Shown here piece by piece: positions 1,760-63,045 of a DNA stretch of 64,000 nt. The DNA comes from Vogesella sp. LIG4 (GTDB lineage Bacteria; Pseudomonadota; Gammaproteobacteria; Burkholderiales; Chromobacteriaceae), in the NCBI RefSeq assembly GCF_900090205.1, contig NZ_LT607802.1, positions 1,559,215 to 1,623,214 on the forward strand, read 5' to 3'. Within the stretch, counting starts at the first letter, position 1, and every line of letters starts with the position of its first letter. Below the pieces are notes generated by a model. It had not been told where the DNA came from. It did not search any database and saw only the letters and a program-made list of their open reading frames with translations. The position numbers and the translations under genes are program-made.

Positions 1760-2308
1760 TCAGATGGCTTGCTTGCTCAGGCGTTGTTCCAGGCGTTGGA
1801 CCAGGGTGTTGACATTCTGCGAGCTGGTGTCGACCACGATATCCGCTATTTCCATATAGAGCGGGTCACGCTGCAGGTAGAGCTGTTCCAGCTTCGAGCG
1901 GGGGTCGGCGGTTTGCAGCAGCGGGCGGCTCTTGTCGTGCTTGGTGCGCGCCAGGATGTCGTCGATCTGCGCCCGCAGGTAGATCACGGTGCCGTGGGCC
2001 TTCAGCGCCGCACGGTTTTCCGCTGCCAGAATGGCTCCGCCGCCGGTGGCCAGCACGATGTCGTGCAACTGGCATAGCTCGGCAATCACCTGCTTTTCGC
2101 GCTCGCGAAAGCGCACTTCGCCCTCGATATCGAAAATCGTGGTGATCTTGACGCCGGTACGACGCTCGATTTCATGATCGGAGTCGTAAAAGGTCTTGCC
2201 CGCATGCCGCGCCAGTGTGCGGCCAACCGTGGTTTTGCCGGCTCCCATCAGCCCGACCAGAAAGAAATTGCCTGCCAGTTCCATGGCAGGCATTGTATCG
2301 GATTGCAT
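1760..2308 (-). CDS. aroK: Shikimate kinase
   Basis: Phosphorylates shikimate at the 3-hydroxyl using ATP. The P-loop [15 protein letters not shown] is at ~residues 20-34, followed by the shikimate-binding [11 protein letters not shown] motif and the GGGAI segment; length (~182 aa) is normal. The start is uncertain: ATG at 2308 is used, but a TTG at 2311 and ATGs at 2293 and 2284 are in frame and no clear Shine-Dalgarno separates them. It follows pilQ by ~18 nt. The P-loop codons include one copy of the dispersed GTTGGCCGCA motif (2218-2227). Confidence 0.96.
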
Positions 2309-2326
2309 CAAGCGCTGTCGTCGAAT

Positions 2327-4432
2327 TTAGCGCGCGATCAGCTCGCTTTCCACGATACGCGGGGTGATGAATACCAGCAGTTCGCGGCGGTTATTGATAA
2401 CCGACTTGTTGCGGAACAAGGCACCCAATACCGGAATATCGCCCAGCAGCGGTACCTTGTTTTCCGTGTTGCTGTTGTCCTGTGTGTAAACCCCACCAAT
2501 GACCACTGTGCCGCCATTCTGCACGCGCACTTCGGTGGTGATGGTCTTGGTGTCGATCGCCGGCTCGGTGCCGACTACCAGGCTGCTGCTGACACTGTCC
2601 TTGGAAACATTCAGTTTCAGCACGATGTCCTCATCCGGGGTGACCTGTGGTGTCACGGTGAGGCTCAGTAGTGCTTGCTTGAACTGGGTGGTGGTGCTGT
2701 TAGCCGTGGTGCTGGTGTAGGGTATCTCTGTGCCCTCGGAGATGGTGGCAGGGGTGCGGTCAGCCGTCAGGATGCGCGGGCTGGACACGATCTTGCCTTG
2801 TCCTTCCGCCTGCATGGCAGACAACTCCAGGCCGATGATGGTACTGGCGCGCTGGTACACGGCGCCGATGCTGCCACCGGTCAGACCGGCAGGCAGATTG
2901 ATGTTCGGACTGAAAGAGATGGTGCCAGCGCTGCCAAAAGTGCCAATGGATGTATCGCCGCCTACGTGTTTAACGCCCAGCTTCACGCCAAGGTCACGCT
3001 GGAAGTTGTCGGTGGCCTCCACGATTCGGGCCTCGATCAATACCTGGCGCAACGGCGTATCCAGCGTCTGGATGATCTTGCGCAGTTCTTCTACTACCGA
3101 TACGCGGTCACGGACGATCAGCTTGTTGGAGCGCGGGTCTACTACCAGGCCAGTGAACTTGGCATTTTGTGCGGCAGTGGTCGCATCTTGGTTGGTATCC
3201 AGGGCGCCGCTGTCGCGGTAAACAGCAACCAACTGGGTCAGCGCATCCTTGAATTCTTCTACTGCGCGGTAACGGATCTGGAAGGTTTCCGTGATGAGCG
3301 GCTCGTTGCTTATCTTCTGGCGCTGTGCTGCAGCGGCATCCTTTTCCGCGGCCAGCAGTTCAGCGCGTGGGGCGATGCGGATCACATTGCCAGCCTGGCG
3401 TTTTTCCAGCCCGCGCTGCGCCAGGATCAGATCCAATGCCTGGTCCCAGGGCACGTCCTTCAGACGCAGGGTCAGCGAGCCGTTCACTGAGTCGCTGACA
3501 ATCACGTTCAGGCCGGTGAACTCGGCAATCACCTGCAGCAAGGAGCGCACTTCCACATTCTGGAAGTTCAGCGACAGCTTTTCACCCTTGTACGGGCTCT
3601 TGCCTTGTGCCAGTAGCGCTGCATCCTGTTCTGCTGACGTTTGTTTCTGGATTTCCACCACCAGGCGGCGGTCGGTCTGGTAGGACGAGTAGGTCCAGTT
3701 ACCTTCGGACTGGATGACTACGCGGCTGCCCTTGCCCTGATTCATGGCTTCGACCTGGGTGGCCGGGGTGGCGAAATCGGTAACATCCAGGCGACGTTCC
3801 AGCGAGTGCGGGATTTTCACCCCCGGCATCTCCACTATGACATTCTTGCCCTCACGGCGAATATTCACTGGCGTGTCGGCACTGGGCAGATCCATGACGA
3901 TGCGCGAACCACCGGCATTGCCGCGGCGGAAGTCCAGGCTGGCGAGCATGCCGCCCGGTGCCATGGCGCCAGGGGCGGCGGCAACGACCGGGGTCTGGAT
4001 TTCGGTAGGCGGCTCACTATTGGCCGCACTGCTGCCATTGCTGCTACCCACGCTGGACAGGGTAACCAGTACGCGGTTGCCATCGAGTTTGCTGGTGTAG
4101 GAAGCTGGTTTGTTCAGCGACAGTACCAGGCGGGATTTGTCCTGCCCTTCAACCAGGGTGGCACCAGTGATCAGGTTGCTGTTCAGGGAAAACTGGTTCT
4201 TGCCGGTCTGATTGTGGGTCGAGGGGAAGTCGAAGGCAATGCGTGGCGGCGAAGACAGGGCAAAGCTGCGTGGCGTGGTGGCAGCATCGGCAAAGCTGAT
4301 GGCCAGCACCTGTTCGTCCAGGGTGCCCTGGAGCAGCTTGACATCGGTGATGGTGCTGGCAGCCCAGGCAGGCAGGGACAGACCGGTCAGCAGCAGAGCT
4401 GAAGAAAGCAGTGTCAGCGAAATTTTTTTCAT
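2327..4432 (-). CDS. pilQ: Type IV pilus secretin PilQ
   Basis: Outer-membrane secretin through which the type IV pilus is extruded and, in naturally competent species, through which DNA enters. Starting at MKKISLTLL gives 701 residues with a clear signal peptide ending ...SLPAWA. Two AMIN-type peptidoglycan-binding regions occupy roughly residues 25-290, an STN/N0 domain follows (LSLNFQNVEVRSLLQVIAEF), then N1 and the C-terminal secretin domain with VPLLGDIPVLGALFR near the end. The ATG overlaps the pilP stop (ATGA), which decides this start over a longer frame. Last gene of pilMNOPQ, directly before aroK. Confidence 0.97.
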   Translation of the reverse strand: MKKISLTLLSSALLLTGLSLPAWAASTITDVKLLQGTLDEQVLAISFADAATTPRSFALSSPPRIAFDFPSTHNQTGKNQFSLNSNLITGATLVEGQDKSRLVLSLNKPASYTSKLDGNRVLVTLSSVGSSNGSSAANSEPPTEIQTPVVAAAPGAMAPGGMLASLDFRRGNAGGSRIVMDLPSADTPVNIRREGKNVIVEMPGVKIPHSLERRLDVTDFATPATQVEAMNQGKGSRVVIQSEGNWTYSSYQTDRRLVVEIQKQTSAEQDAALLAQGKSPYKGEKLSLNFQNVEVRSLLQVIAEFTGLNVIVSDSVNGSLTLRLKDVPWDQALDLILAQRGLEKRQAGNVIRIAPRAELLAAEKDAAAAQRQKISNEPLITETFQIRYRAVEEFKDALTQLVAVYRDSGALDTNQDATTAAQNAKFTGLVVDPRSNKLIVRDRVSVVEELRKIIQTLDTPLRQVLIEARIVEATDNFQRDLGVKLGVKHVGGDTSIGTFGSAGTISFSPNINLPAGLTGGSIGAVYQRASTIIGLELSAMQAEGQGKIVSSPRILTADRTPATISEGTEIPYTSTTANSTTTQFKQALLSLTVTPQVTPDEDIVLKLNVSKDSVSSSLVVGTEPAIDTKTITTEVRVQNGGTVVIGGVYTQDNSNTENKVPLLGDIPVLGALFRNKSVINNRRELLVFITPRIVESELIAR

Positions 4433-4947
4433 GGGGTTTTTCCTTGTTCCGCCTGCAGGAGGAGGTGATTGTCCTGCTTGACCCATTCTCCGTTGATATT
4501 TTCCACGGTCTCTTCGAGGCGCACTTCAGTCTCGGAAATACTGCGCACGATGCCGAAATTGGGACCGATAAAGCTGCCGACCCTGATCTGCTGGATACCG
4601 ACATCGGGTGTTCTGATCAGGCCGATGCGACCTTGCTTGCGCTGGACGGTACCAACCAGTTTCAGCTTGTCCAGATCATAGTTCTCCAGCAAATCGCGTG
4701 TGCGTTGGAGATCCGGCATGTTCTGGCTGGATTTCTTGGCAATCTGCAGACGGTCGGTATTGAATGGCGGTACCAGGCTCTGCCCCTGATATTCGGCCGG
4801 TATATAGGCCGTCATGGGCGGAATCGGCTCAATGGTGCCCTTGATACCTTTACCTGCCTGCTGCATCCATTGCTCGATATCATCGTTCGATCTGTAGCCA
4901 CAGCCTGCCAGCAGTAACCCGATCAGCAGCGAGAGAATCAGTTTCAT
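4429..4947 (-). CDS. pilP: Type IV pilus inner-membrane lipoprotein PilP
   Basis: A 172-residue lipoprotein of the pilus alignment subcomplex that links PilN/PilO to the PilQ secretin. The signal peptide MKLILSLLIGLLLAGC carries a textbook lipobox (LAGC). The C-terminal half holds the beta-sandwich HR-domain pattern (RIGLIRTPDVGIQQIRVGSFIGPNFG). It overlaps pilQ by 4 nt and follows pilO after 14 nt, consistent with a single pilMNOPQ transcript. Confidence 0.95.
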   Translation of the reverse strand: MKLILSLLIGLLLAGCGYRSNDDIEQWMQQAGKGIKGTIEPIPPMTAYIPAEYQGQSLVPPFNTDRLQIAKKSSQNMPDLQRTRDLLENYDLDKLKLVGTVQRKQGRIGLIRTPDVGIQQIRVGSFIGPNFGIVRSISETEVRLEETVENINGEWVKQDNHLLLQAEQGKTP

Positions 4948-10472: not shown

Positions 10473-11696
10473 ATGGCCGATTCCGCCAATAAAAAGCATG
10501 GGGCGCTGGCCCTGCTGCTGGCGGCCCTGGCAACCCTGGGGCCGTTCTCCATCGATACCTTCCTGCCGGCGATGAGCGACATCGGCCATGCGCTGCAGGC
10601 CAGCCCGCTGCAGATGCAGCAGGCGCTGTCGGTATATCTGTTCTGCTATGGCCTGATGATGCTGTGGCACGGCGCCATCTCCGATGCGGTTGGCCGCAGG
10701 CCGGTGGTGCTGGTGACCTCCCTGCTGTTCGCGCTGGCGTCCGTGGGCTGCATGCTGGCGCCCAACCTGGGTACGCTGCTGCTGTTCCGCGCACTGCAGG
10801 GCCTGTGCGGCGGTGCTGGCCTGGTGGTGGGACGGGCGATCATCCGTGACCGTTTCACCGGCCACGATGCGCAGCGCATGATGTCGCAGGTCACCATGCT
10901 GTTCTCGCTGGCGCCGGCGGTGGCACCGGTGATCGGCGGCTGGCTGTTCGGCGCCTTCGGCTGGCGCTCCATCTTCCTGTTCATGGCGCTGGTGGGGCTG
11001 GCGCTGTTCGTGGCCAGCTGGCGCAGCCTGCCGGAAACCCACGGCCCGGCGCAGCGCAGCGCCCTGCACCTGGGCAAGCTTGCGGCCAACTATCTGGAGG
11101 TGGCAAAGAAGCACGACTTCCAGCTGCTGGCACTGGCCGTCACCTTCAACTTTGCCGGTTTCTTCGTCTACATCCCGGCGGCACCGGTATTCCTGATGCA
11201 GCACCTGGGGCTGGGGCACAACGATTTTCTGTGGCTGTTCGGCCCGGCGGTGGGCGGCATCATGCTGGGGGCGTTTGTTTCCGGGCGGCTGGCCGGCCGC
11301 CTTGCCGCGCGCGAACAGGTGAACCTGGGCTACGGGCTGATGTTCGCCGCCGCCGCGCTCAACCTGCTGCAGGCGCTGTTGCTGACGCCGGCGGTGCCGT
11401 GGGCAGTGCTGCCGCTGGGGCTTTACACCGTGGGCATGTCGGTGGCGGCGCCGTCCATCACCATCGTGCTGATGGACCAGTTTCCGCACCTGCGCGGCAC
11501 AGTGTCTTCGGTGCAGGGCTTCGTGCAGACCATGATGTCCACGCTGCTGGCCGGGGTGATTGCGCCGCTGGTGTGGGGCAGCGTGCTTAACATGGCCTGC
11601 TGGATGACCTTCTCGGTGACGGCGGGCTTCCTGCTGCGCATGCGCTACCGCCGGCGCATGGATCGCCACTATCAGGCGATCGAGCTGGATTCCTGA
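10473..11696 (+). CDS. Bcr/CflA-family multidrug efflux MFS transporter
   Basis: A 407-residue major facilitator with 12 predicted helices. Family landmarks: FSIDTFLPAMSDIG in helix 1, the loop motif GAISDAVGRRPVVL (~residues 70-83) and RALQGLCGGAGLVVGRAIIRD in helix 4, all typical of drug:H+ antiporters of the Bcr/CflA group (bicyclomycin, chloramphenicol, sulfonamides). ATG 10473 is used; a TTG at 10452 is in frame. The actual substrate cannot be told from sequence. One dispersed 10-mer lies at 11091. Confidence 0.9.
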   Translation: MADSANKKHGALALLLAALATLGPFSIDTFLPAMSDIGHALQASPLQMQQALSVYLFCYGLMMLWHGAISDAVGRRPVVLVTSLLFALASVGCMLAPNLGTLLLFRALQGLCGGAGLVVGRAIIRDRFTGHDAQRMMSQVTMLFSLAPAVAPVIGGWLFGAFGWRSIFLFMALVGLALFVASWRSLPETHGPAQRSALHLGKLAANYLEVAKKHDFQLLALAVTFNFAGFFVYIPAAPVFLMQHLGLGHNDFLWLFGPAVGGIMLGAFVSGRLAGRLAAREQVNLGYGLMFAAAALNLLQALLLTPAVPWAVLPLGLYTVGMSVAAPSITIVLMDQFPHLRGTVSSVQGFVQTMMSTLLAGVIAPLVWGSVLNMACWMTFSVTAGFLLRMRYRRRMDRHYQAIELDS

Positions 11697-12219: not shown

Positions 12220-12849
12220 TCATTGTACGCGGCGCGGCCAACGTTGCCACAGCCGCCAGGCCAGCAGCACGGCCAGGATGCCGGCATACAGCATGGGCTG
12301 GCTGATGTCGCGCTTCACCAGCCACCAGTAGTGCAGCACGCCGCAGATGGCCAGCGGGTAGACCAGCCGGTGCAGCCGGCCCCAGTTGCGTTTCAGCCGT
12401 CGCATCCAGTTGTCGGTGGAGGTGAAGGCCAGCGGCAGCATCATGCTCATGGCCGCCATGCCCACGGTGATGAATGGCCGCTTCATGATGTCGTGGCCGA
12501 TGGCGTGCCAGTCGAAGAACTGGTCCAGCCACAGGTAGCTGGAGAGGTGCAGCACGCCGTAGAAGAAGGCGTACAGCCCAAGCATGCGCCGCAGGCGCAG
12601 CAGCCAGCCGGGGGCGCCCAGCCAGCGCAGCGGCGAAACGGCCAGCGTCAGCAGCAGGAAGCGCAGCGTCCAGTCGCCCAGCGCGCGGATCAGGTATTCG
12701 ATGGGGTTCACCGCCTGGCCGCCAAACACCACGTAGGCGATCTGCGCCAGCGGCAGCAGGCACAGCGCGAACACCACGCCCTTGAGCCAGGACAGCTGGC
12801 GTGGTGACGGGCGGACAAGGTTGGCCGCAAGGGTAGTATTCATAGTCAT
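12220..12849 (-). CDS. msrQ: MsrQ, haem-binding membrane subunit of the MsrPQ methionine sulfoxide reductase
   Basis: Six-helix inner-membrane cytochrome (209 aa, former YedZ) that passes quinone-derived electrons to periplasmic MsrP. Conserved histidines for b-haem are visible in YGVLHLSSYLW, GRLHRLVYPL and CGVLHYWWLV. ATG 12849 and ATG 12843 are both possible starts. It follows msrP, but the two genes are separated by a ~145-bp palindromic element, which is unusual for this operon. One dispersed 10-mer (12820) encodes part of the N-terminus. Confidence 0.94.
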   Translation of the reverse strand: MTMNTTLAANLVRPSPRQLSWLKGVVFALCLLPLAQIAYVVFGGQAVNPIEYLIRALGDWTLRFLLLTLAVSPLRWLGAPGWLLRLRRMLGLYAFFYGVLHLSSYLWLDQFFDWHAIGHDIMKRPFITVGMAAMSMMLPLAFTSTDNWMRRLKRNWGRLHRLVYPLAICGVLHYWWLVKRDISQPMLYAGILAVLLAWRLWQRWPRRVQ

Positions 12850-12997: not shown

Positions 12998-13902
<905 letters not shown>

Positions 13903-14012
13903 GGCGCATCTCCTGGCAGGTGATGCCGGTGAGTCGGCAGGGGCGGTCAAATCTGACAGCGTAGAGCGCAAAAAATTCTCAACCGGGCGCTATGCGGCCA
14001 ACTTTATGGTGG

Positions 14013-16099: not shown

Positions 16100-16120
16100 A
16101 TGCGGCCAACCCTGTATCGG

Positions 16121-16164: not shown

Positions 16165-17841
16165 ATGCGCGATATCCGACAGCTGGGCAGCTGGCGCATG
16201 CTGATGATCTGGGTACTGGGCTTTGCCAGCGGCTTGCCGCTGGCGCTGTCCGGCACCGCCATGCAGGCCTGGCTGACAGTGGACGGCATCGACGTGGCCA
16301 CCATCGGCTTTCTGAGCCTGGTGGGGCTGCCGTATACCTTCAAGTTCCTGTGGGCGCCGCTGATGGACCGCTTCGAGCCGCCGCTGTTCGGCCGCCGCCG
16401 CGGCTGGCTGGTGCTCACCCAGCTTGGTCTCGCCGCCGCGCTGCTGGCGATGTCGGCGCTGTCGCCGGCGCGCGACGTGCAGGGCTTTGCCTTGCTGGCG
16501 GTGCTGCTGGCCTTTCTGTCCGCCTCGCAGGACGTGGTGATCGACGCCTACCGCACCGACGTGGTGACGCCGGAGCAGCGCGGGCTGGCGTCCTCGCTAG
16601 GGGTGTTCGGCTACCGGCTGGCCATGGTGCTGTCCGGTGGCATCGCCATGGTGTGGGCCGACCCGCTCAATGGCGGCGGCTGGAGCTGGAACGGCATCTA
16701 CCGGCTGATGGCGCTGATCATGCTGCTGCTGGCCGGGCTGTCGCTGCTGCTGTTGCCGCCGGTGCCCAAGGACAGCGTGGCGCCGCAAAGCGATGCGCGC
16801 AACGACCTGAAAGGCTTTGCCGCGCTGCTGCTGGTGGTGGTGATCGGCTACCAGTTCACCACCCATCTGGTGGCGCCGCTGGCGGATCGCGTGCTGTCGC
16901 CGCTGTTCCCGCTGGCGGTGAGCCAGCCGCACTCCGCCAGCCAGGGTGCAGTGCAGGCCGTGGCACAAACGGTGCCGCCTGCGGCCAACCCTGCAAGCAC
17001 TGCGACCGGCAACAAGATGCAGGCCGGCAAGGCGGCAGCCGCCAGACCGGCGGTAGCGCCCAAGAAGAAATGGGTGGATCTGCTGTCGCTGCTGATCGGC
17101 GTGGCGTTTACCGTGCCGCTGGCGTGGTGGGCGGCGCGGCGGGCGAAGTTCGAAACCCTCAACCGCTCGCTGGGCAACTTCTTCAGCATGGAAGCGGCCG
17201 GCTCCTTCCTGGCGCTGATCATCCTCTACAAGCTGGGCGATGCCTTCGCCGGCGCGCTCACTACTACCTTTCTGCTTAAGGGCGTGGGCTTTGCCCAGGC
17301 CGAAATCGGCGTGGTGAACAAGGTGATCGGCATCTGGCTCACCATTGTCGGCGCGCTGCTGGGCGGCACGCTGATGCTGCGGCTGGGGCTGTATCGTGCG
17401 CTGCTGGGCTTTGGCGTGTTCCAGATGTTCTCCAACCTCGGCTTCTGGCTGGTGGCGGTGTCCGGCAAGGGCGCCTGGGGCGGCTTCACCCTGCCGGCCT
17501 TCGACTGGATCATCGTGGCGCTGAAGGAAAGCACCCAGGTGGACTACCTGCTGCTGTTCGCGGTGGCGCTGGAGAATCTGGCCAGCGGCATGGGCACCGC
17601 GGCTTTCGTCGCCTTCCTGATGGCGCTGTGCAACCACCGCTTTACCGCCACCCAGTTCGCGCTGCTGTCGGCCTTCGCCGCCATCGGCCGGGTGTGGGTG
17701 GGGCCGCTGTCCGGCGTGCTGACCGAAAGCATAGGCTGGCCGGCGTTCTTCCTGTTCGCCACCGCCTCCGCCGCGCCGGGGCTGATCATGCTGATGCGGC
17801 TGAAGACGCGGGTGATGGCGCTGGATATCGCCCGGGCCTGA
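16165..17841 (+). CDS. ampG: Muropeptide permease AmpG
   Basis: MFS-type inner-membrane importer of GlcNAc-anhydroMurNAc peptides for cell-wall recycling. At 558 residues it is longer than a 12-helix core because of a hydrophilic Ala/Pro-rich insert (~residues 250-305, ending in PKKKW) between helices. Landmarks: MIWVLGFASGLPLALSGTAMQAW at the start and DVVIDAYRTDVVTPEQRG. The dispersed 10-mer at 16980 falls inside the linker. ATG 16165 follows AGAGGG. Confidence 0.93.
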   Translation: MRDIRQLGSWRMLMIWVLGFASGLPLALSGTAMQAWLTVDGIDVATIGFLSLVGLPYTFKFLWAPLMDRFEPPLFGRRRGWLVLTQLGLAAALLAMSALSPARDVQGFALLAVLLAFLSASQDVVIDAYRTDVVTPEQRGLASSLGVFGYRLAMVLSGGIAMVWADPLNGGGWSWNGIYRLMALIMLLLAGLSLLLLPPVPKDSVAPQSDARNDLKGFAALLLVVVIGYQFTTHLVAPLADRVLSPLFPLAVSQPHSASQGAVQAVAQTVPPAANPASTATGNKMQAGKAAAARPAVAPKKKWVDLLSLLIGVAFTVPLAWWAARRAKFETLNRSLGNFFSMEAAGSFLALIILYKLGDAFAGALTTTFLLKGVGFAQAEIGVVNKVIGIWLTIVGALLGGTLMLRLGLYRALLGFGVFQMFSNLGFWLVAVSGKGAWGGFTLPAFDWIIVALKESTQVDYLLLFAVALENLASGMGTAAFVAFLMALCNHRFTATQFALLSAFAAIGRVWVGPLSGVLTESIGWPAFFLFATASAAPGLIMLMRLKTRVMALDIARA

Positions 17842-17929: not shown

Positions 17930-18541
<612 letters not shown>

Positions 18542-19790: not shown

Positions 19791-20572
19791 TCGCGGTTGC
19801 CGTAGAAGGCGGCATCCTGCTGCGGCCACCAGCCGGGCATGCCCAGCAGCGGCAGCGGTAGCAGCTCGCGCGGGCGGGCAAGCCAGCCGTCGTCGGCCAG
19901 CAGGGCCGCCAGGCGCGCATCCAGCGCCTGCTGGCGCTGCCAGTAGTCCAGCCGGAAGAATTCCTCTGCCACCGGCAGCAGCAATGCCTTGCCGCACCAG
20001 CCGATGTGCATCGCCAGCCCCTGCTCGAACAGCGCATGGCCCAGCACGTGGCTGTCGATGCGCTGCCCCCAGTCCGCGGCGCGGCCGACGAACAGCGTCT
20101 GCCAGTCCATGTCGCGCAGCGCCTGTGCCAGCGTCTCGTCGCTTACCGGCACGATCACTCCGCATTCATCCAGCAGCGTGGCCGCGTCGCGGAACGGCCC
20201 GCGGCCAACTTCGCCACGTTCGATGGCGCGCACGTGGCGGTTATTCAGCGCCAGCTTGCTCTGCGGCCACGACAACCAGGCCAGCGCGCCGAACCAGTCA
20301 TGCCAGTTCTGCGTGCGGGTGGGTACTTCGCCGCTGCTGCCGATATGCATCTCGTAGTACAGTTCCGGCGCCAGGTCGCAGGCAAAGCGCAGTGTCGCGG
20401 GCAAAGGTTGGCCGCAAGCACGGGCATGCGCCAGCAGCGCGTCGTACTCGGCCTGGCCTGGCCAGTCGGCAAACTGCGCAGCCTCGCGCCACGGCGCCAG
20501 GCTGCGGTACAGCGGGTGCGGCTGCCAGCTGCTGAAAGCGGTGGGCAGGCAGCCCTGGGCGACCATGCGCAT
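19745..20572 (-). CDS. DUF3025-family protein
   Basis: A 275-residue soluble protein of unknown function. The family pattern is visible: HDWFGALAWLSWPQSKLALNNRHVRAI, RDAATLLDECGVIV, the LRDMDWQTLF segment and HVLGHALFEQGL. Start MRMVAQGCLP is fixed by TAATG overlap with the small upstream membrane-protein gene. The 3' end runs 46 nt into yihY on the other strand. It carries a dispersed 10-mer at 20407. Confidence 0.85.
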   Translation of the reverse strand: MRMVAQGCLPTAFSSWQPHPLYRSLAPWREAAQFADWPGQAEYDALLAHARACGQPLPATLRFACDLAPELYYEMHIGSSGEVPTRTQNWHDWFGALAWLSWPQSKLALNNRHVRAIERGEVGRGPFRDAATLLDECGVIVPVSDETLAQALRDMDWQTLFVGRAADWGQRIDSHVLGHALFEQGLAMHIGWCGKALLLPVAEEFFRLDYWQRQQALDARLAALLADDGWLARPRELLPLPLLGMPGWWPQQDAAFYGNRDYFRPTRRANSATLN

Positions 20573-20858: not shown

Positions 20859-21914
20859 CTAGGCCAGCACGTGGGCCTGGCCGTCGACGCTGATCTGTAC
20901 CGTGCTGCCGGGCTGCGGGGTGGCAAGACCGCTGTATTTTACCTGCAGCAGGGGCGTGGCGCCGTCGCCAGCCTGCAGGCGGATGCCCAGCAGGCTGCTG
21001 TGGCCGCCAAAGTCCACCTCCGTCACCGTGCCCAGGCAGCCGCTTTCCGCGGCGGCTTGCGCGGGCAGCGGGCGGATCTGCAATTGCTCCGGCCGCAGCA
21101 TGATGCGGGCGGCGCCGGTTGGCGCGGTATCGCGGGTGGGTAGCGCGCCCAGCACGCAGTGCGCCCGGCCGTGCTCGATGCTGGCCGGCAGGATGACGGC
21201 CTCGCCCAGGAACAGCGCGGTGTCTTCGTCTGCCGGGTAGCGGTACAGCTCGGCCGGGCTGCCGGCCTGTACCAGGCGGCCCCGGCGCATGACGGCCAGC
21301 TGGTGGGCGAAGGACAGCGCCTCGGCCTGGTCGTGGGTGACAAGGATGGTGGTGATGCCGGCCGCGGCCAGCAGCTGCGATACCGTCTTGCGCATCTCGG
21401 CGCGCAGCCCGGTGTCCAGCGCGGAAAACGGCTCATCCAGCAGCATCAGCCGCGGTTGCTGTGCCAGCGCACGCGCCAGTGCCACCCGCTGCTGCTGGCC
21501 GCCGGACAGCTCATGCGGCCAACGTTTGAGCATGGCCTGGTCCAGCGCCACCCGTTCCAGCAGCTCCCGGACGCGGGGCAGCTTGTCGCGGGCCCGACCC
21601 GGCAGGCCGAAGCCGATGTTGTCCGCCACCGTCAGGTGCGGAAACAGCGCGCCATCCTGCGGCACGTAGCCGATGCCGCGCTGGTGTGCCGGTACGGCGC
21701 CGCGCTCATCGGCCAGGATGCTGCCATCCAGCCGGATGCTGCCGGCGTCGGGGAATTCGAAGCCGGCAATCATGCGCAGCAGCGTGGTCTTGCCGGAGCC
21801 GGATGGCCCGACGATGGCGGTGCGGCTGCCGGCGGCAACTTGCAGGCTGACTGCATCCACCGCCGGTGTAGCGGCATACCATTTGCCCAGTTGGCTTATT
21901 TCAAGAGTGCTCAT
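20859..21914 (-). CDS. fbpC: Fe3+ ABC transporter ATP-binding protein
   Basis: Energises iron import with the permease and binding protein upstream. 351 residues: Walker [19 protein letters not shown] (~35-52), signature [15 protein letters not shown], Walker [14 protein letters not shown]-loop [10 protein letters not shown], and a C-terminal TOBE-like regulatory domain from ~240. This matches FbpC/AfuC/PotA-type ATPases; the FbpA-type neighbour makes iron the likely substrate. ATG overlaps the permease stop (ATGA). Confidence 0.93.
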
Positions 21915-43908: not shown

Positions 43909-44978
43909 GCCGATTCTGGAGCCCGATAGTCCACAGCCTGACGCCCTATGTGCCGGGCGAACAGCCGCGCATCACCCGGCTGGTAAAGCTGAACACCAAC
44001 GAAAACCCCTACCCGCCGTCGCCCAGGGTGCAGGCAGCCATTGCCGCGGCAACCGCCGACACGCTGCGGTTGTACCCGGACCCGGAATCCACCGCGCTGC
44101 GCGACACCATTGCCGGCTACTACGACGTGCAGGCGCAGCAGGTATTCGTCGGCAACGGTTCGGACGAAGTGCTGGCGCTGGTGTTCCAGGCGCTGCTGCA
44201 GCATGGCGCGCCACTGCTGTTCCCGGACATCAGCTACAGCTTCTACCCGGTGTACTGCAAGCTGTATGGCATCGACTACCGCACCGTGCCGCTGGATGGC
44301 GACTACGCCATCGACCCGGCTGGCTATCAGCAGCCCTGCGGCGGCATCATCTTCCCCAACCCCAATGCGCCCACCGGCCGCCTGCTGGTGCGGGAGGCCA
44401 TCGAGAGCCTGCTGCAGCAGCACCCGGACACGGTAGTGGTGGTGGACGAAGCCTATGTGGATTTCGGCGGCGACAGCATGATCCCGCTGGTGCAGCAGTA
44501 CCCGAACCTGCTGGTGGTGCAGACGCTGTCCAAATCGCGCTCGCTGGCCGGGCTGCGTGTCGGCCTGGCGGTGGGCAGCGCCGAGCTGATCGACGGCCTG
44601 GTGCGGGTGAAGAACAGCTTCAACTCCTACCCGCTGGACAAGCTGGCGCAGGCCGGCGCCCAGGCTGCATTCGAGGATGAGGATTACTTTCGCGCCTGCC
44701 GCGACAAGGTGATTGCCAGCCGCGAGGCACTGGTGGCCGGGCTGACTGCGCTGGGTTTCGCGGTGCTGCCGTCTGCGGCCAACTTCGTGTTCGCCCGCCA
44801 CCCGGCGCACGACGCGGCAACGTTGGCCGCACGCTTGCGCGAGCGCGCCATCATCGTGCGCCACTTCAAGCAGGCGCGTATCGACCAGTTCCTGCGCATC
44901 AGCATCGGCACCGAGGCGGAATGCCAGCTGCTGCTGGCTGCGCTTACCGATATCTTTGCTACCGGAGTCGAAGCATGA
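43905..44978 (+). CDS. hisC: Histidinol-phosphate aminotransferase
   Basis: PLP fold-type I aminotransferase (357 aa), histidine biosynthesis. [14 protein letters not shown] (~26-39), [31 protein letters not shown] and the PLP-lysine region [17 protein letters not shown] are HisC-specific. It is outside a his operon, coupled by ATGA overlaps to a transporter upstream and a CMD-family gene downstream, so it may be a second hisC copy or have another substrate. Two dispersed 10-mers (44774, 44822). Confidence 0.9.
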
Positions 44979-45416: not shown

Positions 45417-45498
45417 GTAGGGCGGGTTGAACCGGCGGTTCATACCCGCGTGAACCGCCAACGCCGCGCGGGTAGGGCCTGCGGCCAACCCGCCCTAC
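45417..45498 (+). repeat. REP-like element, copy 1 (GTAGGGCGGGTT family)
   Basis: 82 bp with outer arms GTAGGGCGGGTTGAACC and GGCCAACCCGCCCTAC and an inner GCGGTTCA/TGAACCGC pair. The right arm contains a dispersed 10-mer (45480). Related copies at 58009-58082, 61745-61806 and 61914-61996. Confidence 0.75.
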
Positions 45499-48019: not shown

Positions 48020-48039
48020 TGCGGCCAACGTTGGCCGCA
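48020..48039. repeat. Inverted pair of the dispersed 10-mer after tpx
   Basis: TGCGGCCAACGTTGGCCGCA: two perfect copies head to head, forming an uninterrupted 20-bp palindrome 12 nt after the tpx stop. In Neisseria and Haemophilus, uptake-sequence pairs sit in the same place and can act as terminators. Here a separate terminator follows. Confidence 0.9.
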
Positions 48040-48125: not shown

Positions 48126-48149
48126 GGTGGCGACAAGGTTGGCCGCATG

Positions 48150-49828: not shown

Positions 49829-49937
49829 TTACGATGACGTGTTACATGGCGGGGCAGGGCAGGCAGGCGGGGGCCGGCCTACCTTAAGCCGGATGCGTGA
49901 CGATCTGATGACGCCGGGCGGGAAGGTTGGCCGCAGC

Positions 49938-50583: not shown

Positions 50584-52629
50584 ATGAGCCAGACCAACCC
50601 GTTGCTCGACTTCTCCGACCTGCCCCGCTTCGACACCATCAAGCCGGAGCACATCACCCCGGCGCTGGACGTACTGCTGGCCGAGGCGCGCACCGCCATA
50701 GCCGCCGTCATCAAGCAGGGCGGCGACAGCTGGGAAGAGGTCTCCGAGCCGCTGTCCGACGCCACCGAACGCCTGTCGCGCGCCTGGGGCGTGGTAGGCC
50801 ACCTCAACGGCGTGATGGGCAATACCGACGGCCTGCGCGAGGCGTACAACGCCGAGATCCCGCGCATCTCCGCCTTCTTCACCGAGCTGGGGCAGAACCT
50901 GGAGCTGTTCGCCCGCTTCAAGGCCGTTGCGGCCAACCCTGCGTTTGCCGGCGCCAGCGCCGCGCGCAAGAAGGTGATCGAGAACGACCTGCGCGACTTC
51001 CGCCTGTCCGGCGCCGAGCTGCCGGATGAGCAGAAGGCGCGCTTTGCCGAGCTGTCCAGCCGCCTGGCCGAGCTGTCCAACCAGTTCTCGCAGCACGTGA
51101 TGGACGCCACCGACAGCTTCTCGCTGTACATCGAAGACGTGACCGAGCTGGCCGGCATTCCGGAAGACAGCCTGGCCATGTACGCGGCGCTGGCCGAGGC
51201 CGATGGCCAGCCGGGCAAATACAAGCTGGGCCTGCAATTCCCGCTGCTGTTCCCGGTGCTGCAATACGCCGACAACCGCGCACTGCGCGAAAAACTGTAC
51301 GAGGCCAACGCCAAGCGCGCCTCCGAATTCGGCCCCGCCGAGCAGGACAACGGCCCGCTGATCCGCGAGAAGCTGCAGTTGGCCGCAGAAGAAGCGCAGC
51401 TGCTGGGCTTTGCCAACTACGCCGAGCTGTCGCTGTACACCAAGATGGCGCAAAGCCCGCAGCAGGTTACCGACTTCCTGCGCGACCTGGCGCAGCGCGC
51501 CAAACCCTACGCGCTGCAGGATCGCGCCGAGCTGGAAGCCTTCGCCCGCGACGAACTGGGCCTGGCCGAGCTGCAGGCCTGGGACATCAGCTACGCCGCC
51601 GAAAAACTGCGCGTGGCGCGCTACGCCTTCTCCGAACACGAAGTGAAGCAGTACTTCCCCGAGCCCAAGGTACTGGCCGGCCTGTTCGGCGTGGTGGGCA
51701 AGCTGTACGGCGTGCGCTTTGCTGCGCGCAGCGTGGCTGCCTGGCACCCGGACGTGCGTTACTACGAAATCTTCCAGGGCGATGCGCTGCTGGGCGGCTT
51801 CTACCTCGACCTGTACGCCCGCGACGGCAAACGCCCCGGCGCCTGGATGGACGACGTGCGCGGCCGCCGCGTGAAAGACGGCCGGGTGCAGACCCCGGTG
51901 GCCTACCTGGTGTGCAACTTCAGCCGCCCGGTGGGCGACAAGCCGGCCTACTTCACCCACGATGAAGTCATCACCCTGTTCCACGAATGCGGCCACGGCT
52001 TGCACCACCTGCTCACCCGCGTGGACGAGCTGGGCGTGGCCGGCATCAGCGGCGTGGAATGGGACGCGGTGGAGCTGCCCAGCCAGTTCATGGAGAACTT
52101 CTGCTGGGAATGGGACGTGCTGCAGGGCATGACCGCCCACGCCGACAGCGGCCAGCCGCTGCCGCGCGATCTCTACGACAAGATGATCGCCGCCAAGAAC
52201 TTCCAGTCCGGCATGCAGATGGTGCGCCAGCTGGAGTTCTCGCTGTTCGACATGCTGCTCTACACCGCTGCCGACCCAGGCAGCATCGACTGGCTGGCGC
52301 TGCTGGAACAGGTGCGCGACGAGGTGGCGGTAAACCGCCCGCCGGCCTACAACCGCTTCCCCAACAGCTTCAGCCACATCTTCGGCGGCGGCTATGCAGC
52401 CGGCTACTACAGCTACAAGTGGGCGGAGGTGCTGTCCGCCGATGCCTACGCGGCGTTCGAGGAGGCCGGCGGCGCCAACCCGGTGGTGGGCCGCCAGTTC
52501 TGGGACGAAATCCTGGCAGTGGGCGGCAGCCGCCCGGCGCTGGAATCCTTCCGCGCCTTCCGCGGCCGCGACCCGCAGATCGACGCACTGCTGCGGCACA
52601 GCGGCATGAGCGAGCCGGCGGCGGGTTGA
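50584..52629 (+). CDS. prlC: Oligopeptidase A
   Basis: M3-family zinc metallopeptidase (681 aa) that degrades short peptides, including signal-peptide fragments, in the cytoplasm. Zinc motif TLFHECGHGLHHLL (HExxH, ~residue 463) with the downstream glutamate in SGVEWDAVELPSQFMEN. Start MSQTNPLLDFSDLPRFDTIKPEHI is the family N-terminus and follows CAGGAAA. Two dispersed 10-mers inside (50928, 51378). Confidence 0.96.
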   Translation: MSQTNPLLDFSDLPRFDTIKPEHITPALDVLLAEARTAIAAVIKQGGDSWEEVSEPLSDATERLSRAWGVVGHLNGVMGNTDGLREAYNAEIPRISAFFTELGQNLELFARFKAVAANPAFAGASAARKKVIENDLRDFRLSGAELPDEQKARFAELSSRLAELSNQFSQHVMDATDSFSLYIEDVTELAGIPEDSLAMYAALAEADGQPGKYKLGLQFPLLFPVLQYADNRALREKLYEANAKRASEFGPAEQDNGPLIREKLQLAAEEAQLLGFANYAELSLYTKMAQSPQQVTDFLRDLAQRAKPYALQDRAELEAFARDELGLAELQAWDISYAAEKLRVARYAFSEHEVKQYFPEPKVLAGLFGVVGKLYGVRFAARSVAAWHPDVRYYEIFQGDALLGGFYLDLYARDGKRPGAWMDDVRGRRVKDGRVQTPVAYLVCNFSRPVGDKPAYFTHDEVITLFHECGHGLHHLLTRVDELGVAGISGVEWDAVELPSQFMENFCWEWDVLQGMTAHADSGQPLPRDLYDKMIAAKNFQSGMQMVRQLEFSLFDMLLYTAADPGSIDWLALLEQVRDEVAVNRPPAYNRFPNSFSHIFGGGYAAGYYSYKWAEVLSADAYAAFEEAGGANPVVGRQFWDEILAVGGSRPALESFRAFRGRDPQIDALLRHSGMSEPAAG

Positions 52630-52645: not shown

Positions 52646-52665
52646 TGCGGCCAACGTTGGCCGCA
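52646..52665. repeat. Inverted pair of the dispersed 10-mer after prlC
   Basis: TGCGGCCAACGTTGGCCGCA again, identical to the pair after tpx and 16 nt beyond the prlC stop. A conventional terminator follows. Confidence 0.9.
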
Positions 52666-53731: not shown

Positions 53732-53812
53732 GCATTGCAACGTCCAAGGTCCACCCTGCCGGGTAAAACGTTGGCCGCAAGCTGCTTCCACAACTTCCCG
53801 GATCGCCACCCG

Positions 53813-56158: not shown

Positions 56159-56929
56159 ATGCAACTTGCCACCTGGAACGTCAATTCGCTGAAAGTGCGC
56201 CTGCCGCACGTGCTGCAGTGGCTGGCGGAAAACCCCGTAGACGTGCTGTGCCTGCAGGAGCTGAAGCTCGACCAGCCGGCGTTTCCGCAGGCCGAAATCG
56301 AGGCGGCGGGCTACCAGGCGGCATGGCTGGGGCAGAAGACCTATAACGGCGTGGCCATCCTGGTGAAGAACGGCTGCAGCATGAGCGACGTGGTCAGCGG
56401 CATCCCCGATTACGACGACGAGCAACGCCGGGTGATCGCCGCCACCGTGGACGGTGTGCGGGTGATCTGCGCCTACTTCGTCAACGGCGAGGCGGTGGAT
56501 TCGCCCAAGTACCAGTACAAGCTGCAGTGGCTGGCGAACATGGAGCGCTATGTGGCCGCCGAGTTGGCCGCACACCGGGATTTTGCGCTGCTGGGCGACT
56601 ACAACATCGCACCGGAAGACATCGACGTATACGACCCGGAAGGCTGGCACGAGCAGGTGCTGTGCACCACGCCGGAGCGCGATGCCTTCCGCCGCCTGAT
56701 CGGCATGGGCCTCACCGACAGCTTCCGCCACTTCAACCTGGAGCCGAAGATGTACAGCTGGTGGGATTACCGCGCCATGATGTTCCGCCGCAATATGGGC
56801 GTGCGCATCGACCATATCCTGATCAGCGACAGCCTGAAGGCGCGCGCCAGCGGCTGCGTTATCGACAAGGCCCCGCGCAAGTGGGAACGCCCGTCCGACC
56901 ACACCCCGGTAGTACTCACCCTCGGCTGA
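56159..56929 (+). CDS. xth: Exodeoxyribonuclease III
   Basis: 256-residue EEP-family nuclease: ATWNVNSLKVRLPHVLQWL, LCLQELKLDQPAFP (catalytic Glu), DYNIAPEDIDVYDP, and SDHTPVVLTL (catalytic His) are present. Acts as AP endonuclease and 3'-5' exonuclease in base-excision repair. One dispersed 10-mer (56563, codons GAG-TTG-GCC-GCA). Followed by the isomerase gene after 15 nt. Confidence 0.95.
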   Translation: MQLATWNVNSLKVRLPHVLQWLAENPVDVLCLQELKLDQPAFPQAEIEAAGYQAAWLGQKTYNGVAILVKNGCSMSDVVSGIPDYDDEQRRVIAATVDGVRVICAYFVNGEAVDSPKYQYKLQWLANMERYVAAELAAHRDFALLGDYNIAPEDIDVYDPEGWHEQVLCTTPERDAFRRLIGMGLTDSFRHFNLEPKMYSWWDYRAMMFRRNMGVRIDHILISDSLKARASGCVIDKAPRKWERPSDHTPVVLTLG

Positions 56930-58008: not shown

Positions 58009-58082
58009 GTTGGCCGCAGGCCATACCTGCGCGAGGGGGCTGGCTGTGCGCGGGTATGAACCGCGGGTTCAGCCCGCCCTAC
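58009..58082 (-). repeat. REP-like element, copy 2 (inverted orientation)
   Basis: Read leftwards: GTAGGGCGGGCTGAACC, then CGGTTCATACCCGCGCACAG, ending GGCCTGCGGCCAACC with a dispersed 10-mer (58009-58018). The outer right arm is lost. The whole 57952-58266 gap (315 nt) contains this, a terminator and another 10-mer (58157). Confidence 0.65.
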
Positions 58083-58266
58083 GCACCATCGCCCTGAGTC
58101 CGGAGAAGCACCCTGTTGGCCGGCGCTCCCCGAGCCGCCGCCGGGTGCTTCACGACGTTGGCCGCAACAGTTGTCACTTGCCACTGCCTGCCGCCGGCCC
58201 GCGGGGCTGCCGGCCGGCAGCGGGCGCAGGTATGCTGGGCATCCTGTTCCGTAGCGCTGGCGTGCC

Positions 58267-59220
58267 ATGTCCGAAGACATCCATTTCCTGCTGTTGCCCG
58301 AGTTCTCCATGCTGGGTCTGCTGTCGGCGATCGAGCCCTTGCGGGTGGCCAACCGCTTTCGTAGCGACTTGTACCGCTGGCATCTGCTGAGCGTGGATGG
58401 CGAATCGGTGCGTGCCAGCAACGGCATGTCGCTGCAGGCGGAGGGCAGCTTCGCCAGCGTGGCGGCGGTGCAGACCTTGTTCGTGGTGGCCGGCTTCAAC
58501 CCGCTGGCGCATGGCGCGGCCGGGCTGAATGGCTGGCTGCGGCAGCTGGAGCGGGCCGGCGCCACGCTGGGCGGCATCGATACCGGCTGCTTCGTGCTGG
58601 CCGAGGCCGGGCTGTTCCAGCAGCAGCGGCTGACCCTGCACTGGGAGGCGATTGCCGCCTTCCGCGAGCGCTTCCCGCTGCTCAACGTCACCCAGGAGCT
58701 GTTCGAGATCGATGGCCGCCGCATCAGCTCCGCCGGCGGCACTGCCTCGCTGGACCTGATGCTGGAGCTGATCGGCCGCCGCCACGGCGCGGCGCTGGCC
58801 ACCCAGGTGTCGGAGCAGTTCGTGCTGGGGCGCATCCGCGCCAAGAGCGATCACCAGCGCATGCAGTTGGCCGCACGCTATGGCGTGCACAACAAGAAGA
58901 TCGTGCAGGTGCTGGCCGCCATGGAGGCCAACACCGAGTGCCCGCTGTCCAGCGACGAGCTGGCCGATGGCGTGGGGGTGACGCGGCGGCAGCTGGAGCG
59001 GCTGTTCCGTGCCCAGTTCGACGAGACGCCGAGCAGCTTCTACCTGCGGCTGCGGCTGGAGCGGGCACGCGAGCTGCTGCGCCAGACCGATATGAGCGTG
59101 CTGGAAGTGGGCGTGGCCTGCGGTTTCGAGTCGGCCACCTACTTTGGCCGCGCCTACCGCAAGCAGTACGGCACTACCCCCAGCCACGACCGCAACGCCA
59201 TCGCGCCCGGGCACGGTTAG
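58267..59220 (+). CDS. cdhR: GlxA-family AraC-type regulator (probable CdhR)
   Basis: 317 residues. N-terminal DJ-1/PfpI-like domain (~1-180; nucleophile-elbow-like GGIDTGCFVLAEAGL) joined to an AraC/XylS helix-turn-helix pair (~220-317; LADGVGVTRRQLERLFRAQF, EVGVACGFESATYFGRAYRKQYGTTPS). This is the architecture of Pseudomonas CdhR, activator of carnitine degradation. It converges on a gene set matching cdhABC, which supports the name; no effector can be read from sequence. Dispersed 10-mer at 58866. Confidence 0.75.
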   Translation: MSEDIHFLLLPEFSMLGLLSAIEPLRVANRFRSDLYRWHLLSVDGESVRASNGMSLQAEGSFASVAAVQTLFVVAGFNPLAHGAAGLNGWLRQLERAGATLGGIDTGCFVLAEAGLFQQQRLTLHWEAIAAFRERFPLLNVTQELFEIDGRRISSAGGTASLDLMLELIGRRHGAALATQVSEQFVLGRIRAKSDHQRMQLAARYGVHNKKIVQVLAAMEANTECPLSSDELADGVGVTRRQLERLFRAQFDETPSSFYLRLRLERARELLRQTDMSVLEVGVACGFESATYFGRAYRKQYGTTPSHDRNAIAPGHG

Positions 59221-61179: not shown

Positions 61180-61667
61180 GCCGCACCTCCTTGCCGGGCG
61201 GCGCCGGGCAGGGCGATCACCCGCCCGGCGTAGGCCGGCCACGGCCCGGCACTGCTTGCGGCCAACTGTTGCACCTGCGCCAGCACTGCCGGGCTGAACG
61301 CTGCGCCACGCGCGATGCCGGTATCGATGTGCATCAGCATCTGCTCGCTTACCGCCGCCGGTTCGGCATCGTCGCCACGGTACAGGCTGAAGTAGACATG
61401 CAGCCGCTTGCTGTCGTGGCCCAGCAGTTGCGCCTCTACCCGCAGCGGCTCGCCCAGCTTCAGCTCGCGCAGGTAGTTCAGGTGCACTTCCAGCGTGTAC
61501 ACCGAGCGCTGGCTGCGCTGGCGCTCGGCTTCGTCCAGGCCGATGCGCTCGATCAGCGCGTCGCTGGCCAGGCTGAACGCCAGCAGGTAGTAGGCGTCGC
61601 GCATGTGGCCGTTGTAGTCCACCCAGTCGCTGCGCACGCTGTTGCGATAAAGGCACAGTGCCGTCAT
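61176..61667 (-). CDS. cdhC: Thioesterase, probable betainyl-CoA thioesterase
   Basis: 163-residue hotdog-fold protein of the 4-hydroxybenzoyl-CoA thioesterase type: SDWVDYNGHMRDAYYLLAFSLASDALIERIG with the catalytic-Asp region, and VYTLEVHLNYLRELKLGEPLRVEAQLLG. In Pseudomonas, CdhC hydrolyses betainyl-CoA to glycine betaine; the name rests on neighbours. A dispersed 10-mer (61257) lies in its 3' part. Start MTALCLYRNSVR follows GGAGTGTGAC. Confidence 0.75.
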
Positions 61668-61744: not shown

Positions 61745-61806
61745 ATGTAGGGCGGGTTGAACCAGCGGAACTGTGCGCGGGTATGGCCTGCGGCCAACCC
61801 GCCCTA
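61745..61806 (+). repeat. REP-like element, copy 3 (short form)
   Basis: GTAGGGCGGGTTGAACC ... CTGTGCGCGGGTATGGCC ... GGCCAACCCGCCCTAT. Lacks the inner GGTTCA.. arm found in copies 1 and 4. Contains 10-mer 61789. Confidence 0.7.
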
Positions 61807-61913: not shown

Positions 61914-61996
61914 TAGGGCGGGTTGAACCGGAGGTTCATTCCCGCGTGAAGCGACAACTGTGCGCGGGTATGGCCTGCGGCCAACCCACCCTACGG
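61914..61996 (+). repeat. REP-like element, copy 4
   Basis: Full-length form (~83 bp): GTAGGGCGGGTTGAACCGG, GGTTCATTCCCGCGTGAAGC, CTGTGCGCGGGTATGGCC, CCAACCCACCCTAC. Contains 10-mer 61976. Confidence 0.7.
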
Positions 61997-62031
61997 TGTA
62001 GCCGTACCGCCGGGCAGGTTTTCGCCCCCGC

Positions 62032-62985
62032 TTACACCCCGTGGCGGGCCTTGCAGGCCTCGATGGCACGCTGCACCTGGATGATGCAGTCGTCGCGGTA
62101 GCGCTCCAGCGCCTTGATCGAGTGCTGGCCGAGCTGCTCGCTGGTGCCGGCCACCACGCTGTCGATCAGCTCGTCGGTAAGCTCCGGCGCCTGCAGCTTG
62201 GTCCACGGCAGCTGCAGCGCCGGGCCGAACTGCTGCATGAAATGTCGCATGCCGGCGTCGCCGCCCGCCAGGGTGTAGGTGAGGAAGGTACCCATGAAGG
62301 ACCAGCGGATGCCGGCGCCGTAGCGGATGGCGTCGTCGATCTCGCCGGTGGTGGCCACGCCGTCGTTGACCAGGTGCAGCGCCTCGCGCCACAGCGCTTC
62401 CAGCAGGCGGTCGGCAATAAAGCCCGGCACTTCCTTGCGCACGTGCAGCGGGTGCATGCCGAGTTCGGCGTAGATGCGGCTGGCGGCGACGATGGTCTCC
62501 GGCGCGGTGTGCTGGCCGCCCACCACTTCCACCAGCGGCAGCAGGTACACCGGGTTGAACGGGTGGCCCACCACGCAGCGCTCGGGGCGCTGCGCGTCGC
62601 GGTAGAACTCGCTGGGCAAGAGGCCGGAGGTGGAGGAGGCGATGATGGCGTCCGGCTTGGCGGCCGCCGAGATGCGGGCGTGCAGTTCCTGCTTCAGCGA
62701 CAGCCGCTCCGGCGCGCTTTCCTGAATGAAGTCGGCATCGGCCACCGCTTCTTCCACCGTGGCGACGAAGCGCAGCCGCTGCGGCGAGGCGCCGGGCTTC
62801 AGCCCCAGTTGCTGCAGCGCCGGCCAGGCGTTGGCGATATTGGCGCGCAGTTGCGCTTCGGCGCCTGGTGCCGGGTCCCAGGCCACCACGTCCAGGCCGT
62901 TGGCCAGTGCGCGTGCCACCCAGCCGCTGCCGATGACGCCGACGCCGAGGGCGGCGAAGGTTTTCAGTTCGGTAATCAATGCCAT
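62032..62985 (-). CDS. cdhA: L-carnitine dehydrogenase
   Basis: 317 residues, 3-hydroxyacyl-CoA-dehydrogenase-like. NAD+ site [17 protein letters not shown] (~11-27); [84 protein letters not shown]. These match bacterial L-carnitine dehydrogenases (EC 1.1.1.108), which oxidise carnitine to 3-dehydrocarnitine. Start [10 protein letters not shown] at 62985. Located directly after cdhB. Confidence 0.88.
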
Positions 62986-63045
62986 GTCGAGTCTCCTGCC
63001 TGCCGGCATGGGCCGGCGGTGTGATGTGCGGTATGCGGCCAACCT

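Follow-up and report, generated by a model that had tools for sequence, protein, structure and literature searches.

What is the 10-mer GTTGGCCGCA, which recurs throughout a 64-kb stretch of the Vogesella sp. LIG4 genome (hereafter the window, positions 1,559,215-1,623,214 of a single contig of 4,147,242 bp), and what might read it? The window opens inside a small minor-pilin gene (1-207, + strand; its start lies before the window), which we identify below as an orthologue of ComP, the receptor of the neisserial DNA uptake sequence (DUS). Our analysis indicates that GTTGGCCGCA is very probably the DNA uptake sequence of Vogesella and that ComP would be its reader. On the best reading, the DUS/ComP system has a new branch here, in a family other than Neisseriaceae, with a function that we infer from sequence. 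Depletion in mobile DNA aside, the in silico marks of an uptake-sequence system that were assessed are present, and a ComP orthologue comes in addition.

An exact search of the window found 45 copies of GTTGGCCGCA, 24 forward and 21 reverse, close to the 43 (22 and 21) that the original prediction had counted by eye. Its rough expectation of less than one copy likewise agrees with 100 dinucleotide-preserving shuffles (mean 0.47, maximum 3). Under an order-5 Markov model trained on the window, the expectation is 1.7 copies and the word ranks first among all 10-mers, so that composition does not explain it. The whole genome holds 2,895 copies (1,458 + 1,437 by strand), whereas the control, the word read backwards, occurs only 4 + 4 = 8 times; the enrichment is therefore genome-wide and, because all 13 Vogesella genomes are rich in the word, genus-wide, as had been predicted. 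For anatomy and placement we used 39 evenly spaced 20-kb stretches together with the window (844 kb), in which 593 sites were found against 6 exact copies expected from a background with the sites masked. An uptake-sequence system is expected to have its word on both strands in copy numbers of hundreds to thousands, well beyond chance, and GTTGGCCGCA shows this.

To place the word within the family, we used 61 Chromobacteriaceae genomes, 13 from Vogesella and 48 from others, the sister genera being coded g2 to g10. When named genomes were scanned with the window pilin, Vogesella indigofera DSM 3303 ranked best of at least 13 loci, and 4,001 of its bases are 100% identical to G005, a genome of the window's genus, which assigns that genus to Vogesella (Neisseriales, Chromobacteriaceae in NCBI). 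By exact count, GTTGGCCGCA (the CA dialect) occurs 1,871-2,895 times in 13/13 Vogesella genomes and 8-58 times in 48/48 other family genomes; in a sample of 399 genomes from the order, all 393 non-Vogesella genomes have 52 copies or fewer. In samples of 20-100 kb from 12 sister genomes, nine had this core but a different ending, with GTTGGCCGAA or GTTGGCCGAG leading in eight; no such word was seen in the sampled DNA of G018, G019, and G020 or in 20 kb of G023. By whole-genome counts, GTTGGCCGAA (the AA dialect) marks eight genomes with 183-2,168 copies: 1,104, 893, and 183 in g2, 2,168 and 579 in g3, 1,245 in g5, 1,851 in g10, and 1,368 in one of the ten g6 genomes (G017), the other nine having 11-36. 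Across the order sample it is high in G016 and G017 only, with 47 or fewer in the other 397. GTTGGCCGAG (the AG dialect) reaches 1,940 and 1,590 copies in two g4 genomes and is weaker in G023 (165), G027 (92), G036 (85), and G073 (67). Counting G027 (62 AA, 92 AG), G036 (45 AA, 85 AG), and G073 as lacking a dialect, 23 of the 61 genomes carry one and 38 do not (nine in g6, 19 in g7, six in g8, and four in g9). The three dialects CA, AA, and AG differ at the last two bases only. The original prediction of a motif proper to this lineage thus stands insofar as the word is enriched throughout Vogesella; it is not one isolated dialect, since sister genera carry GTTGGCCGAA and GTTGGCCGAG.

The counts of GTTGGCCGAA in G023 (579) and G029 (183) lie below those of their congeners, and G023 mixes AA (579) with AG (165); decay or a dialect change in progress is possible in these genomes. 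No comparable genus-level word was found in 140 kb from three negative g6 species, 120 kb from three g7 species, 120 kb from two g8 species, or 100 kb from two g9 species. The samples of G076 and G077 contain short repeats with 8-10 copies in 40 kb, among them CGAAGCGGTAGC with nine copies in 40 kb of the motif-less G077 (L227, L228). Beyond the family, we sampled 19 genomes of the order, representing 18 other families, in twenty pieces of 20 kb, and none contained a word at this density; repeats in these samples were two in G053 (5 and 11 copies) and one in G365 (6 copies).

The original prediction had also proposed a matching ComP-like pilin, and the window pilin finds Neisseria ComP first both by profile and by fold. 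Profile A2, built from 13 orthologues (12 from motif-bearing genomes and one from G018), returned three Neisseria ComP structures at the top of the PDB: 2nba (E 2.1e-21), 2m3k (1.7e-19), and 5hz7 (4e-19). The match spans the soluble domain, whereas for most other pilins the N-terminal helix provides the bulk of the match. As a control, eight PilE-type pilins of the genomes studied were made into a profile; its top hit was PilE, and ComP was absent from its hits at E 0.1. An AlphaFold model of the window ComP (predicted local distance difference test score 88.6, 30 sequences) led Foldseek to 5hz7 and 2nba first, the sole rows with probability 1.00 among the best 50. By profile, PilE control, and fold, the window pilin is a minor type IV pilin nearer to ComP than to other pilins. 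It shares with Neisseria ComP (2m3k, 2nba, and 5hz7) a W-P-x-L-P region and a C-terminal cysteine pair, but is only 20-21% identical in structural alignments. According to PMC8897410, ComP homologues seem limited to Neisseriaceae; the predicted orthologues in the Chromobacteriaceae genomes studied here extend ComP beyond that family. Two other candidates were set aside. The Pfam family PF16732 (ComP_DUS) is not discriminating as a receptor marker, since 39 of 41 genomes from all over the order have pilins that match it, and the PilE of operon A is conserved between genera regardless of dialect, its profile having no match to ComP.

Matches of ComP length occur in all 23 motif-bearing genomes. 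The orthology is least sure in g8, where six matches score 87-121 bits and one has an internal stop, and four g9 genomes give paralogue-level scores only (58-71 bits). In one motif-less genome, the comP-like match G083:C1:465054-465458 contains one internal TGA. We read 33 orthologues, from the 23 motif-bearing genomes and from 10 of the 34 motif-less genomes with a match (none from g8). Of the 23 ComPs from motif-bearing genomes, 22 have N-x-D in the predicted beta1-beta2 loop, as against none of the 10 motif-less ComPs; in g6, the loop reads NTD in G017, which bears the motif, but NAR in six congeners that do not. The model places N-x-D at residues 95-97, in its least certain stretch. The predicted beta3-beta4 turn reads QDGN in 8/8 AA genomes, ESGN in 2/2 AG genomes, and TQTG in 12/13 CA genomes (STG in G006), with QDGN or QDGS in the 10 motif-less ComPs. 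Because CA and AG each represent one genus, kinship alone could explain this turn pattern. ComEC is found in 59 of the 61 genomes, word-bearing and word-less alike, so that absence of the word is not due to absence of the channel; 11 of 13 Vogesella genomes have it, including the window genome, and it is missing from the drafts G001 and G008.

The gene next to comP raises a different candidate for the reader. In four mapped Vogesella loci (G000, G002, G003, and G005, of which G000 is the window genome, with the gene outside the window) a fimT-like gene lies directly upstream, the end of fimT being the start of comP, an arrangement that distinguishes these ComPs from Neisseria ComP. The word could be an uptake sequence that is read by this FimT-like pilin, or by FimT and ComP together, rather than by ComP alone. 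Legionella FimT binds DNA through arginines in a flexible C-terminal tail, as described in PMC8897410. A C-terminal GRxR (GRPR or GRAR) is present in 5/5 aligned sister FimTs and in 0/6 Vogesella FimTs, which parallels the dialect change. However, PMC8897410 reports no sequence selectivity for Legionella FimT, and ComP both has an established role as DUS receptor and carries the residues that correlate with the word, so we regard a role for FimT in reading the word as unlikely. The FimT of V. indigofera (L073:9561-9992) has 144 residues and a gap of about 36 columns relative to its relatives.

We then related the sites to genes, using a gene caller that puts three Pfam-confirmed window genes and comP on the right strand. 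In the window, 19 of 45 sites are intergenic and one lies on a gene edge, although only 11.4% of the window is intergenic; in the 844-kb sample, 227 of 593 sites fall in the 13.3% of DNA between genes, 364 within genes, and two on edges. This corresponds to 2.02 sites per kb between genes versus 0.50 within genes, a fourfold difference, which bears out the enrichment between genes claimed from the window alone. The claim of tolerant placement within genes also held, as the 364 genic sites use all six frames but are read mainly as LAA (129), AAN (127), and VGR (61), the other three frames accounting for 47. Both this placement and the presence throughout the lineage are as expected of an uptake-sequence system. 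Where segments of the window genome could be aligned with G003 loci, they covered 15 distinct sites, of which 6 were identical; counted by aligned row this is 7 of 16, against 1.4 of 16 predicted from segment identity. Random 10-mers were identical in 1,333 of 7,408 cases over all such alignments. As alignable loci are few and nonrandom, this comparison is support and not a measurement, and the G003 part alone was used because the joint count of 65/81 kept sites counts the same sites repeatedly (22 distinct).

The two perfect inverted pairs described in the original prediction were recovered just past the redoxin and peptidase M3 stop codons (Table 1), and the sample contains 49 inverted pairs with a gap of at most 20 bp. 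Tandem gaps account for 29 of these and convergent gaps for 14; none is in a divergent gap, four are in genes, and two are at stretch ends, whereas 105 of the 499 gaps of at least 40 bp are divergent. Each of the 43 intergenic pairs follows a stop codon, in 30 cases by no more than 40 bp, as might be expected of a word that had spread chiefly as a transcription terminator or RNA element. However, at most 98 of the 593 sites belong to such pairs, 364 lie inside genes, and Rfam finds one tRNA only in the window, which makes this explanation very unlikely. Nor does a single repeat family account for the word, a possibility that the original prediction had raised; four of the 45 window sites lie in a REP-like (repetitive extragenic palindromic) element, in its fuller form TAGGGYGGGTTGGCCGCAGGCCMTACCCGC. 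A further repeated word, GCTTCCGCCCTA, was found 18 times over the 844 kb.

Across the 593 sites, the flanks favor A at -3 (0.57), A at -2 (0.56), and G at -1 (0.53) on the 5' side and A or T, then G (0.54), then C or G on the 3' side, giving AAGGTTGGCCGCA[A/T]G[C/G] as the preferred extended form of the Vogesella word. The commonest 12-mer in the sample is AGGTTGGCCGCA, with 181 copies versus 3 expected. The 30 one-base variants of GTTGGCCGCA together number 188 versus 186 expected with the sites masked from the background, and the sole variant that stands out is GTTGGCCGCG (38 versus 9). With this exception, decayed copies around the exact word are almost lacking. Among 553 gaps between sites, those below 60 bp are in excess (55 versus 25 expected), those of 60-400 bp are depleted (63 versus 122), those of 800-3,200 bp are in excess (301 versus 251), and longer ones number 38 versus 47; once the close pairs are set aside, the spacing is more even than random. 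In L117, direct site pairs recur about every 197 bp (17467, 17665, and 17862), suggesting a tandem repeat that carries the word. Two stretches of the LIG4 sample are poor in the motif, L137 (G000, 3.40 Mb) with three sites and L139 (3.60 Mb) with five per 20 kb; both have lower GC and lie near a GC-skew switch. They were considered as mobile islands, but Pfam, scanned with coordinates from a discarded gene caller that had learned the antisense strand, shows regulators, transporters, and metabolic genes instead, and the hallmark of depletion in mobile DNA was not shown.

A word so frequent and so dispersed over the whole chromosome could also be a chromosome-maintenance signal such as Chi, KOPS, matS, or the site of a nucleoid protein. 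Chi and KOPS are oriented words, whereas GTTGGCCGCA uses the two strands equally whatever the sign of the skew (139/138 over the 19 samples with positive skew, 138/133 over the remaining 20), and this together with the fourfold higher density between genes leaves such a role barely tenable. Retention of the word by a methylase or restriction system, as a highly iterated modification site, is no more credible: the word does contain GGCC, a common methylase site, but the 10-mer is not palindromic, 18 of the 30 one-base variants keep GGCC and yet the 30 taken together stand at expectation, and the dialects vary at the last two bases only.

We compared the three dialects with six of the eight published neisserial dialect words, computing shuffle p values over both strands and offsets of -3 to 3; the published words include AT-DUS (ATGCCGTCTGAA), AG-simDUS (AGGCTGCCTGAA), and AA-king3DUS (AAGCAGCCTGCA). 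The AA dialect with its flank, AGGTTGGCCGAA, aligns in register with AG-simDUS at 9/12 positions (p 0.009), which suggests that the words may be a distant branch of the DUS family; on this sequence likeness, common descent of the Chromobacteriaceae words and neisserial DUS is suggested. The original prediction had set the motif apart from DUS, and while the absence of GTCTG stands, this alignment may bring the two closer than it had allowed. The systems also share a word of 10-12 bases with thousands of copies on both strands, dialects at the level of lineages, and a ComP orthologue, and inverted pairs near gene ends are found in Neisseria DUS as well. Likewise, the A-to-C change at +9 from GTTGGCCGAA to GTTGGCCGCA also separates kingDUS from king3DUS (PMC3630211). 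The host family is different, and the Vogesella CA form (8/12, p 0.07) is by itself only weakly similar to the published words; the AG form reaches 8/12 (p 0.05). The Pasteurellaceae uptake signal sequence (USS) is likewise a dispersed uptake word tied to a type IV pilus system, with a core unrelated to the Vogesella word. Its proposed receptor is PpdA/ComN, not ComP (PMC12616744).

In the literature, the 2013 survey in PMC3630211 reports no obvious DUS in five genomes of Chromobacterium, Pseudogulbenkiania, Lutiella, and Laribacter. No uptake link for the CA word or its complement appeared in the titles of matching literature, among the matches listed. No such dialect appeared among the listed literature that pairs DNA uptake sequence with Vogesella, Chromobacteriaceae, Chromobacterium, or Neisseriales, a search covering few subscription papers or preprints, and the two papers in which Vogesella and natural transformation both occur have neither term in the title or abstract.

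Several observations weigh against GTTGGCCGCA as a ComP-read uptake sequence. According to PMC3630211, CTG at +6 to +8 is common to all eight neisserial dialects, as is A at +10, whereas all three dialects here replace CTG with CCG and the AG dialect has G at +10 (A in CA and AA); lacking the CTG mark, the word is not filed as a further neisserial dialect. Neisseria ComP has two disulphides, from beta1 to the DD region and from beta4 to beta5 (PMC12061091), whereas the window ComP, with cysteines C14, C48, C126, and C135, has just C126 and C135 in its beta part and hence one C-terminal pair. The soluble isoelectric point of the 17 ComPs computed spans 4.7 to 9.8, so that an electropositive surface is not general. 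The word does not vary within Vogesella, yet 10 ComPs from other genomes of the genus share only 35-49% identity with the window ComP. Moreover, matches of ComP length occur in 34 of the 38 genomes without the word, implying that ComP accompanies the word but does not suffice for it, and the motif-bearing G021 lacks the N-x-D loop. Finally, the number of sites per 20 kb (mean 14.05, variance 15.1) is near Poisson, and the evenness of spacing is visible only at the scale of single gaps.

If GTTGGCCGCA is indeed the uptake sequence of Vogesella, ComP in the competence type IV pilus would bind the 10-mer on outside double-stranded DNA via its alpha1-beta1 and beta1-beta2 loops and C-terminal region. 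Retraction of the pilus would then draw the bound DNA in for recombination after ComEC-dependent transport. Preferential uptake of this kind, with recombination after it, would let the word accumulate and stay uniform, and joint change of ComP and word may have produced the dialects ending in CA, AA, and AG that separate genera. More tentatively, and with somewhat less than even confidence, we propose that ComP-read words predate the split of Neisseriaceae and Chromobacteriaceae, the core having changed between CTG and CCG, and that the CA/AA/AG split and several losses came later; N-x-D may mark the readers, while the beta3-beta4 turn may tune the last two bases.

Table 1. Coordinates of the comP features and GTTGGCCGCA sites in the window; sites are from the exact search.
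Feature	Position	Strand	Basis or remark
comP orthologue, 3' part (minor pilin)	1..207	+	profile A2 and AlphaFold/Foldseek; whole gene with stop G000:1559002-1559421
codons for NTDNG, predicted beta1-beta2 loop of ComP	70..84	+	orthologue comparison, loop placed by model
codons for TQTG, predicted beta3-beta4 turn of ComP	139..150	+	orthologue comparison, model; AA genomes QDGN, AG genomes ESGN
GTTGGCCGCA site	2218..2227	-	identical in 6 other Vogesella genomes with alignable loci, segment identity 69-76%
GTTGGCCGCA site	10689..10698	+	
GTTGGCCGCA site	11081..11090	-	
GTTGGCCGCA site	12820..12829	+	
GTTGGCCGCA site	13460..13469	+	
GTTGGCCGCA site	13993..14002	-	
GTTGGCCGCA site	16101..16110	-	
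GTTGGCCGCA site	16980..16989	-	
GTTGGCCGCA site	17939..17948	-	
GTTGGCCGCA site	20407..20416	+	
GTTGGCCGCA site	21514..21523	-	
GTTGGCCGCA site	22784..22793	+	
GTTGGCCGCA site	23474..23483	+	
GTTGGCCGCA site, left arm of inverted pair with 26188..26197 (gap 21)	26157..26166	-	
GTTGGCCGCA site, right arm of inverted pair with 26157..26166	26188..26197	+	
GTTGGCCGCA site	30614..30623	-	
GTTGGCCGCA site	32380..32389	+	
GTTGGCCGCA site	34452..34461	-	
GTTGGCCGCA site	35250..35259	+	
GTTGGCCGCA site	36473..36482	+	
GTTGGCCGCA site	38008..38017	-	
GTTGGCCGCA site	38416..38425	+	
GTTGGCCGCA site	38893..38902	-	
GTTGGCCGCA site	42204..42213	+	
GTTGGCCGCA site	43434..43443	+	
GTTGGCCGCA site, inverted with 44822 (gap 38)	44774..44783	-	
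GTTGGCCGCA site, inverted with 44774	44822..44831	+	
GTTGGCCGCA site in REP-like element	45480..45489	-	
perfect 20-bp inverted pair: 48020-48029 (-), 48030-48039 (+)	48020..48039	.	11 bp past redoxin stop (gene ends 48008, +; Pfam confirms strand)
GTTGGCCGCA site directly ahead of hairpin-plus-T-run sequence	48138..48147	+	
GTTGGCCGCA site	49926..49935	+	
GTTGGCCGCA site	50928..50937	-	
GTTGGCCGCA site	51378..51387	+	
perfect 20-bp inverted pair: 52646-52655 (-), 52656-52665 (+)	52646..52665	.	16 bp past peptidase M3 stop (gene ends 52629, +; Pfam confirms strand)
GTTGGCCGCA site	53770..53779	+	
GTTGGCCGCA site	56563..56572	+	
GTTGGCCGCA site in REP-like element	58009..58018	+	
GTTGGCCGCA site	58157..58166	+	
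GTTGGCCGCA site	58866..58875	+	
GTTGGCCGCA site	61257..61266	-	
GTTGGCCGCA site in REP-like element	61789..61798	-	
GTTGGCCGCA site in REP-like element	61976..61985	-	
GTTGGCCGCA site	63034..63043	-	

Chromobacteriaceae, a family neighboring Neisseriaceae, thus shows three dialects with a patchy presence; in one genus a single species is positive and nine are negative. According to PMC12061091, the structure of a ComP-DNA complex is still unresolved, and natural ComP variants that switch the last two bases, or that occur without the word, are material for mapping specificity. The word suggests strong, genus-limited gene exchange in Vogesella, and GTTGGCCGCA would be a practical tag for transforming members of this genus.

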